Source of the DNA: Campylobacteraceae bacterium
GTDB lineage: Bacteria; Campylobacterota; Campylobacteria; Campylobacterales; Sulfurospirillaceae
Length of the DNA stretch: 46,520 bases
Assembly (NCBI GenBank): GCA_027050775.1
Contig: JALUBH010000043.1
Span: forward strand, 1-46,520
Direction: 5' to 3'
Both the position numbers and the translations under genes were made by a program. The notes below the pieces were generated by a model. That model searched no databases and had not been told where the DNA came from. It saw only the letters and a program-made list of their open reading frames with translations. Positions 15,089-17,291 of the stretch are shown piece by piece. Each line of letters opens with the position of its first letter. Position 1 is the stretch's first letter.

Positions 15089-15289
15089 ATTTTACTGTCA
15101 TCTTTACAAGGAAGTGAATTCCTTGTAAATTCACGCTCTACTAAAGCACAACCTACGGTCGTATGATTTTATTTTACTGTCATCTTTACAAGGAAGTGAA
15201 TTCCTTGTAAATTCACGCTCTACTAAAGCTAGACCTTACGGTCAGAAACCTTTGTTTTACTGGATAAATTCACACGCTCTACTAAAGTT
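15089..15289 (-). repeat. 82-bp tandem repeat with alternative hairpins
   Basis: A 59-base core occurs identically at 15089-15147 and 15171-15229 (period 82), with a shortened third copy at 15254-15289 that overlaps the U32 gene's stop. Each complete core holds two overlapping palindromes: TTTACAAGGAA-GTGAA-TTCCTTGTAAA (11-bp stem) and GTGAATT-N7-AATTCAC (7-bp stem). They share bases and so exclude each other. The spacer parts (CTACGGTC, CTTACGGTC) are also related. Confidence 0.85.
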
Positions 15290-16538
15290 TTCTTCTTAAA
15301 AATGTAAAGGCCGGTAAAGCTTTTGGCAATATTATAGCATTTGCATTTCCACTATGAATAGAGCTATATATCTTGCCTTTTTCACTTTGTAGTTTTTTAA
15401 ATTCTATATGCCATTTGCCCTCTTTTTTAAAAACTCTGCCAAATTCATTTTCTATCTCTTTTATATTTTCATCCGGCAAAACTAACTCATACACGGCACT
15501 TGGTTCCAATTTGTCTTTTGATAAACATCCTTTTCCATCTTCACTTACCATAGCACATACTTGATGCGTACCCTCGCTTATAGAGTCTTTTAGATTTTGG
15601 GTGTCATTTTTTTCAAATGGTCTCTTAACAAGATATCCATCATTAAATCCTCTATTTTTTGTACTATTTAACTCTGCTTCATATATTGAAGCATTAAACT
15701 TCTCTTTATAGTAGTCATCTATCGCTTTTTTATATGTCTTAGTCGTTATCCCGACATAATATGTACTTTTTGTTCTGCCTTCTATCTTTAAAGAGTCGAT
15801 TATACCACTATCTAAAATAGTATCTACATGAGCACTTAGATTTAAATCTTTGGCATTCATTATGTGAGTGCCTTCTTCGCTCTGTTCTAACTTAAAAAGA
15901 GTCCCGCTATCTTCATTTTTCGCATACATAGTATACGGAAATCTACAATCATTTGCACAACTACCACGATTTGAAACTCTACCGCTTTGAAGAGAACTTA
16001 TAAGGCATCTGCCGCTGTATGCAAAGCACATAGAGCCGTGAACAAAAACTTCAAGCTCAAGCTTGGGCAAATATTCCTTTATCTTTTTTAAATCCTTGAG
16101 ACTCACTTCTCTTGCGGCTATAATCCTCTTAACACCCAAATCCCAATAAACCTCAGCATCAAGATAACTCAGCACATTTGCCTGAGTGGAGAGATGAATC
16201 GGTATTTCAGGAGCAATCTCTTTTATAAGCTTTATAACTCCCGGAGCTGCTACTATAAACGCGTCCGGATTCATAAGAGCTACTTTTTGCACATGTTTCT
16301 TCAGTAGCTCAATTTGAGAATTAAAAGGAAAGCCATTTACGGTAACATACAGTTTTTTGCCCTTAGAATGGGTATAGTTGATAGCCTCTTCAAAACTCTC
16401 ATATGTAAACTCTTTTCCGCTTCTGAGTCTTAGAGAAAAATGACTCACGCCTGCATATATCGCATCTGCACCATAAGCAAGCGCTATCTTTAACTTCTCA
16501 AAATTTCCCGCCGGTGAAAGTAGTTCTACTCTACCCAT
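15282..16538 (-). CDS. U32-family peptidase / tRNA hydroxylation protein (TrhP-like)
   Basis: The 418-residue protein has the U32 core: ELLSPAGNFEKLKIALAYGADAIYAG, GKKLYVTVN, VHGSMCFAYSGRCLISS (U32 signature), RGSCANDCRFPY with cysteines proposed to hold an iron-sulfur cluster, MNAKDLNLS and SLKIEGRTKSTYYV. Related E. coli proteins TrhP (YegQ) and RlhA add hydroxyl groups to tRNA U34 or 23S C2501; the TrhP type is the better guess. Its ATG follows the cheZ stop without a gap, so the two are probably coupled. Confidence 0.88.
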   Translation of the reverse strand: MGRVELLSPAGNFEKLKIALAYGADAIYAGVSHFSLRLRSGKEFTYESFEEAINYTHSKGKKLYVTVNGFPFNSQIELLKKHVQKVALMNPDAFIVAAPGVIKLIKEIAPEIPIHLSTQANVLSYLDAEVYWDLGVKRIIAAREVSLKDLKKIKEYLPKLELEVFVHGSMCFAYSGRCLISSLQSGRVSNRGSCANDCRFPYTMYAKNEDSGTLFKLEQSEEGTHIMNAKDLNLSAHVDTILDSGIIDSLKIEGRTKSTYYVGITTKTYKKAIDDYYKEKFNASIYEAELNSTKNRGFNDGYLVKRPFEKNDTQNLKDSISEGTHQVCAMVSEDGKGCLSKDKLEPSAVYELVLPDENIKEIENEFGRVFKKEGKWHIEFKKLQSEKGKIYSSIHSGNANAIILPKALPAFTFLRRKL

Positions 16539-17291
16539 CTATTTCTTTTTACCTAGACTCTCGATGATAGCCTCTATCTCGTCAGTGCTCACCAAATCTT
16601 CTGTATTGTCATCTCCATGAATATGAACAGCAGAGCCTACTCTTTTGTCGTCATCTATACTTCCCTCAAAAAGAAGGCTTATGTATTTTGAAAGAGCTCT
16701 CATCACATTTATAACTCTCTCGATTTTTTGCCTATGTATGTCTTGATACTGCATGATGTCCATCGCTGTCATGACCTCATCTTCTCCTGCTTGAGCATTT
16801 GATTTCATGGTTTCAATTTTTTCTTTTATCTCAATATTGTCTTCGAGAACAGATTTGAACTGGGCGATATTTGGAAATTTTTGTACCAATTTTTGAAAAA
16901 GAGTTATATTTGCATCAATTTTTACAAGAACTATATCCATATCAGCTTCCATATCCATCAAGACATTATTGACTTCGTCTAGCTTATCAAAAATTTGTGT
17001 GGCTTTTACCTCAGAATCTTTAGTCACATCATCTAGTTGGGTAACCATTTTATGATCATCTGTCGGTGGAGGCGGAGGCCAAGCCATATTTGCATCTGCT
17101 TTGTATTCGTGGATATCCTTTTGGTTGTCATCTCTATTTTCTATATCTTCACCATTTTTTACATCTTCTTTGATAACTTTCCCCAACTCTTTATCCTCAC
17201 TCTCTTCGCTTTCGCTGGGTGCTGATTGTGTTTCCGTATCCAAATCATCCAAATCACCGGCCATCAATTCATCAAGCTCTTCTTGTGTCAT
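16539..17291 (-). CDS. cheZ: Chemotaxis phosphatase CheZ, Campylobacterota type
   Basis: I start at the ATG at 17291, six bases after GAGGAG; the ATG at 17297 abuts that site. The 250-residue product has a long acidic, low-complexity linker (PPPPPTDD near residue 80), then a four-helix-bundle hairpin with the catalytic segment QYQDIHRQKIERVINVMRAL, matching the Gln-containing CheZ active site that removes phosphate from CheY-P. It ends in STDEIEAIIESLGKKK, a CheY-binding peptide like that of E. coli CheZ. The N-terminus TQEELDELMAGD also resembles the FliM CheY-binding peptide. Confidence 0.88.
   Translation of the reverse strand: MTQEELDELMAGDLDDLDTETQSAPSESEESEDKELGKVIKEDVKNGEDIENRDDNQKDIHEYKADANMAWPPPPPTDDHKMVTQLDDVTKDSEVKATQIFDKLDEVNNVLMDMEADMDIVLVKIDANITLFQKLVQKFPNIAQFKSVLEDNIEIKEKIETMKSNAQAGEDEVMTAMDIMQYQDIHRQKIERVINVMRALSKYISLLFEGSIDDDKRVGSAVHIHGDDNTEDLVSTDEIEAIIESLGKKK

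Follow-up and report, generated by a model that had tools for sequence, protein, structure and literature searches.

The window, that is, the whole stretch of 46,520 nucleotides analysed here, carries a gene for a CheZ protein (cheZ) and, directly downstream of it, a gene for a U32 peptidase, for which the name trhP has been published (Table 1). The CheZ protein matches the NCBIfam family NF041271 (Phos_CheZ) with an E value of 5.8e-68 over its full length, residues 1-249 lying on profile positions 1-242. At 229 bits it falls short of the curated cut-off, 350, a level reached by 27 of 397 genomes of the phylum. The Pfam family PF04344 (CheZ) does not match the protein significantly (E 1.3), though it picks up this gene in a congeneric genome (G061, E 2.3e-4). 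Among 34 genomes searched with PF04344, no CheZ was found in the 28 genomes without an NF041271 match, and the two matches obtained (G061 and G021) are genes which NF041271 also finds. FliM is present in G016 and G018 (genus g17) and in the genomes of family f9, where neither NF041271 nor PF04344 matches a CheZ; the f9 FliM is divergent.

Table 1. Features of the cheZ locus, in positions of the window (residue numbers refer to CheZ).
Feature	Positions	Strand	Basis
U32 peptidase gene (trhP), directly downstream of cheZ	15282..16538	-	PF01136, E 9.6e-78
cheZ, campylobacterotal CheZ, 250 aa	16539..17291	-	ORF and NCBIfam NF041271 Phos_CheZ match
N-terminal FliM-like peptide TQEELDELMAGD, residues 2-13	17253..17288	-	Conservation, FliM matrix, model
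Acidic low-confidence (disordered) linker, residues ~14-77	17061..17252	-	pLDDT, poor column conservation
WPPPPPT proline run at the linker end, residues 71-77	17061..17081	-	Near-invariant in alignment
Hairpin helix 1, residues 78-138	16878..17060	-	AlphaFold2 model
Hairpin helix 2, residues 143-209, with invariant MDIMQYQDIHRQKIERVINV	16665..16865	-	Alignment and AlphaFold2 model
Catalytic DxxxQ, D184-I-H-R-Q188	16728..16742	-	Alignment to DLTGQ of E. coli CheZ
C-terminal CheY-docking peptide STDEIEAIIESLG, residues 235-247	16551..16589	-	FliM matrix, model, E. coli alignment

When a profile of 36 relatives is used, the DIHRQ stretch of the protein aligns with DLTGQ of E. coli CheZ, and D184 and Q188 are invariant in the 36-row alignment. 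The corresponding catalytic residues of H. pylori CheZ are given as D189/Q193 in PMC11237671, according to which dephosphorylation of CheY-P by this enzyme has been shown. The full-length match, the U32 neighbour, the DIHRQ stretch and the C-terminal dock are all held in common with the H. pylori-type CheZ (NF041271), and nothing essential differs. On these sequence grounds, we take the protein to be the campylobacterotal CheZ, a predicted CheY-P phosphatase. With the E. coli type (PF04344), it shares the aligned DxxxQ and the C-terminal CheY peptide, and its model also has a long hairpin and a C-terminal helix; unlike E. coli CheZ, it bears a FliM-like peptide at the N-terminus. E. coli CheZ is the only protein from outside Campylobacterota in this comparison, and absence of the peptide in other phyla is not claimed.

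The AlphaFold2 model (mean pLDDT 71.9, pTM 0.46) arranges the protein as an N-terminal peptide, an acidic disordered linker, a helical hairpin, a short linker and a C-terminal peptide. The hairpin (78-138 and 143-209) is long and confidently modelled, whereas pLDDT falls below 50 at residues 14-59 and 61-65 of the linker, about residues 14-77, of which 30% are D+E. A short helix is modelled at residues 3-11, within the N-peptide (MTQEELDALMAGD; MTQEELDELMAGD with the start Met, residues 1-13), and a further helix at residues 236-247 in the C-peptide. In a structure search with the model, the matches listed comprised generic helical hairpins only and no solved CheZ; neither was a solved CheZ of the PDB among the matches listed in sequence and profile searches. 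The sequence-only reading had described two CheY-binding-like peptides joined by a long acidic linker. Both peptides and the linker exist; however, the linker lies between the N-peptide and the hairpin and is not simply a joint from peptide to peptide. The WPPPPPT run directly before the hairpin is near-invariant in most campylobacterotal CheZ and takes a different form, short and FPLP/FPFP-like, in one family (f7), which we infer to be Arcobacteraceae.

Outside the hairpin, no piece of CheZ is as conserved as the N-peptide. In the 36-row alignment, M1, T2, Q3, E4, E5, L6, D7 and L9 are the same in every row, and beyond them conserved columns are almost absent up to about residue 70. That alignment was drawn from a search which had MTQEELDE among its seeding patterns and is biased toward the motif, so that the main counts were taken from loci found by HMM instead. 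These comprise 91 CheZ proteins (the protein of the window, L002-L031, L112-L141 and L142-L171); most genera contribute a single protein, but two genera account for 30. Of the 91 proteins, 84 carry the motif at the start Met, two have the form MNQEELDAL[VL] and five have none. Conservation in Campylobacterota CheZ had been proposed as a check on the peptide, and it holds throughout the phylum, with 86/91 proteins retaining it. Searched for as DNA, MTQEEL[DE]x[LIMV] turns up in 271 of 397 genomes of the phylum (backward control, 0). By hand count, it covers 266 of the 288 non-f7 genomes that have a CheZ match; the other five of the 271 are three f7 genomes (with the hit in a short paralogue in two of these) and two genomes without a CheZ match. 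Position 8 is Glu in the protein of the window, Ala in 137 and Ser in seven of 145 genes selected by the MTQEELD motif itself.

Where the enzyme decays, the N-peptide is lost together with the active site. Three proteins (L139, L140 and L141) are encoded still next to the U32 gene, yet they have lost both end peptides along with the DxxxQ region. The state of the motor differs among them: in the genus of L140 (g54), none of three genomes tested has a FliM match, in the genome of L141 (G222) FliM is degenerate, and in that of L139 (G062) FliM is intact. Since G062 keeps an intact FliM although its CheZ has decayed, the N-peptide is lost with the enzyme and not only with the motor.

The C-terminal peptide of E. 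coli CheZ and the N-terminal peptide of FliM share one common face of CheY. The sequence-only reading had likened the C-terminus of the present protein to the first and its N-terminus to the second, and both likenesses are borne out. The C-peptide aligns with the E. coli CheZ C-terminus in the profile of 36 relatives. For the N-peptide, an independent scoring matrix was built solely from 11 distinct FliM N-peptides and was compared with 48,657 control windows, whose 99.9% quantile is 6.5 bits and whose maximum is 11.7. The N-peptide (residues 1-13) scores 13.6 bits and the C-peptide (STDEIEAII) 12.2 bits, whereas E. coli CheZ scores high at its C-terminus only (14.3 bits). Among the 86 CheZ proteins retained after L139, L140, L141, L169 and L171 were left out of the 91, all 86 N-ends and 76 C-ends exceed the 99.9% control level. 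A chance likeness is ruled out by this comparison of the FliM-trained matrix with the control windows.

Position by position, FliM (SQEEIDALL) and CheZ (TQEELDELM) of the same genome share a nine-residue pattern, S/T-Q-x-E-I/L-D-x-L-L/M. In the CheZ N-peptide outside f7, Leu and Met replace the Ile and Leu of FliM. The bait also differs in its carrier: the FliM peptide sits on the motor switch, whereas the CheZ copy is found on the phosphatase, at its first residues. Among 50 FliM stretches, 47 have LSQ[ED]EID, one has LSTDEINALL and two, from f9, could not be matched to the FliM of this genome. A loose DNA pattern occurs at 19 places in the genome, where only FliM and CheZ have the full motif at the N-terminus. 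The EIDALL peptide of FliM occupies the groove of CheY at alpha4/alpha5 and has been proposed as a first-step capture site; the same source describes such bait so far for the switch proteins FliM and FliY and quotes a Kd of 27 uM for a FliM peptide (PMC9126983). A FliM-like dock on CheZ, if real, would extend EIDALL-type bait to a phosphatase. No description of the N-terminal motif was found in the open literature searched, outside which fall the 2010 and 2015 papers on H. pylori CheZ and the paper on ChePep.

Published deletions in H. pylori bear directly on the role of the peptide. As reported in PMC11237671, CheZ without its N-terminal region (residues 1-39 in one strain) keeps phosphatase function and normal biofilm initiation, whereas truncation of the C-terminal region (by 12 residues in one strain) or changes of D189/Q193 abolish the role of CheZ. 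Since phosphatase function survives the loss of residues 1-39, the N-peptide does not serve as another essential dock for catalysis, a job done by the C-peptide. In the H. pylori assays at least, the role left to the N-peptide is a non-catalytic one. The same source calls the function of the N-terminal region unknown, despite the near invariance of the first CheZ residues in a phylum which includes major gut pathogens.

The f7 family departs from the general scheme in its linker. Its 16 CheZ proteins start with MSMSQEEIEALM or close variants, and the f7 N-end reads SQEEIEALMNG. The linkers are 98-201 aa long and contain 37 matches to the FliM matrix, distributed over 15 of the 16 proteins. Shuffled linkers give a mean of 8.4 matches in 200 shuffles (max 17) and of 8.0 in 500 shuffles (max 18). 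Reversed linkers give 17 matches, which are attributed to the acidic and partly palindromic character of the motif, and the folded parts give 10. With stricter thresholds, the observed, reversed and shuffled numbers are 23, 7 and 2.9 at 8 bits and 15, 5 and 0.6 at 10 bits. Many of the internal motifs fall, by eye, into about three aligned columns, and the matrix matches predict two to six docks per chain. In non-f7 CheZ (L170 being counted here as non-f7), no extra linker motifs beyond chance were found, with six matches vs 5.1 in shuffled linkers. In all 16 f7 loci cheZ is adjoined by cheY, as in the published CheYz-CheZ arrangement of Arcobacter. There, as stated in the same source, the F3 chemotaxis class has been lost, cheYZ has remained next to the flagellar genes, and the proposed FliM binder is CheYz (PMC9321776).

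The f7 family also has short second CheZ-like proteins of 123-155 aa (L169, L170 and L171), which contain the active-site helix and the C-terminal peptide. One of them, L170 (155 aa), has both end peptides joined by a short linker, its N-end being MTQEELDALMAG. The other two are without the N-motif, though they keep the active-site helix and the C-peptide, which indicates that CheZ-like proteins can manage without an N-peptide.

The presumed ligand is also encoded in the genome. Its CheY (L248) shows 50% identity to that of E. coli and, with positions assigned by hand count, retains W58, Y106 and K119, published as FliM-binding residues. By the same hand count, Gly stands at the aligned position 91, where E. 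coli CheY has Lys91, a lysine published as a FliM contact.

With some confidence, though not a high one, the N-peptide is read here as a second, non-catalytic dock for CheY or CheY-P that would serve capture or competition. Each CheZ chain would have two CheY docks, one at each end. The C-terminal helix corresponds to the established CheZ dock, from which CheY-P is passed to D184/Q188, whereas the N-terminal helix (TQEELDxLM) would be a dock of the FliM type, dispensable for catalysis, at the end of a flexible acidic tether. The N-dock would probably bind the alpha4-beta5-alpha5 groove of CheY, which is the FliM-type site, with a preference for phosphorylated CheY. Its likely use would be capture, by which local CheY-P is raised around CheZ before it is handed over to the catalytic dock; alternatively, CheY-P would be kept away from FliM. 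For the Arcobacter-like f7 proteins, the tether would have turned into a string of docks. The motif, its conservation, its FliM likeness and its loss along with the active site are observed, whereas we infer binding of CheY by the N-peptide, its dependence on phosphorylation and its use in capture or competition. The sequence-only reading, in which two such peptides could tether CheY-P or let CheZ compete with the flagellar switch, is supported in part. The multiplication of the motif in f7 and the position of cheZ beside cheY in 16/16 loci are counted as support for this reading, whereas the Gly at position 91 of CheY, the absence of the N-motif from L169 and L171, the 17 matches in reversed f7 linkers and the H. 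pylori 1-39 deletion are counted against it.

Docking on a receiver or partner other than CheY, such as CheV, the receiver of CheA, or ChePep, is an unlikely alternative, in which the N-peptide would place CheZ in a complex without catching CheY-P. Dependence of polar CheZ placement on ChePep in H. pylori, as given in PMC7750401 and PMC11237671, would agree with such a role, as would the binding of C. jejuni CheO to CheZ, CheA, FliM and FliY (PMC9665402). This is opposed by the persistence of the motif in f7, which fits an Arcobacter that has lost the F3 class and yet still has cheY beside cheZ. Moreover, the region for polar placement was reportedly found to be central and not N-terminal in a 2015 study of H. 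pylori CheZ.

It is still less probable that the N-peptide acts inside CheZ or on the motor and never meets CheY, either mimicking the C-peptide or occupying a surface of CheZ, FliM/FliN or CheO in autoinhibition, oligomerisation or placement. The undiminished phosphatase function after deletion of the N-region in H. pylori (PMC11237671) is compatible with this, as is the model, in which the N-peptide forms a short helix of its own with packing that is beyond judgement. However, neither the position-by-position likeness to FliM (S/T-Q-E-E-I/L-D-x-L-L/M) nor the repetition of the pattern along the f7 linkers would be expected of an internal contact. Finally, a constraint on translation start or mRNA structure, with a peptide of no binding role, would explain why the conserved stretch starts exactly at the start codon, but it is highly improbable and was set aside, because codon choice at synonymous third positions is highly variable (four codons for Thr and six for Leu in the 145 genes chosen by MTQEELD) while the protein is invariant, so that conservation acts on the protein, and because f7 realises the same pattern with different residues (MSMSQEEIEALM).

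With the CheY dock as the preferred reading of the N-peptide, a look-alike which is kept throughout the phylum and multiplied in one family suggests that CheZ may catch CheY as the motor does. A more tentative extension, for which the odds are judged slightly unfavourable, regards Campylobacterota CheZ as a multivalent catcher of CheY-P with look-alikes of the motor bait, and the f7 linker as a string of docks of the FliM/CheZ type. As part of this extension, and equally tentatively, the basic state would be two docks per chain, or four per dimer if the protein is dimeric. If it is true, the f7 docks would lie at the N-end, at up to four internal sites and at the C-end, and one CheZ could hold many CheY-P molecules. 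It could then make the signal threshold sharper and, in cells with five CheY-like proteins, compete with FliM. With docks ranging from two to about six, the f7 strings form a natural series for studying how valence shapes the sharpness of a response.

The gene neighbourhood of cheZ is likewise conserved. The U32 gene adjoins cheZ in 138 of 149 non-f7 loci, a count which sets aside the 16 f7 loci and six with degenerate or short proteins and includes 80 loci from the MTQEELDE-seeded search. The cheZ-trhP order has been published as conserved in Campylobacterota (PMC9321776). The two genes are conserved neighbours, and their pairing is outside the proposed mechanism. The gene for the CheY of this genome (L248) adjoins a PrmA-like ORF, as published for Campylobacterota.
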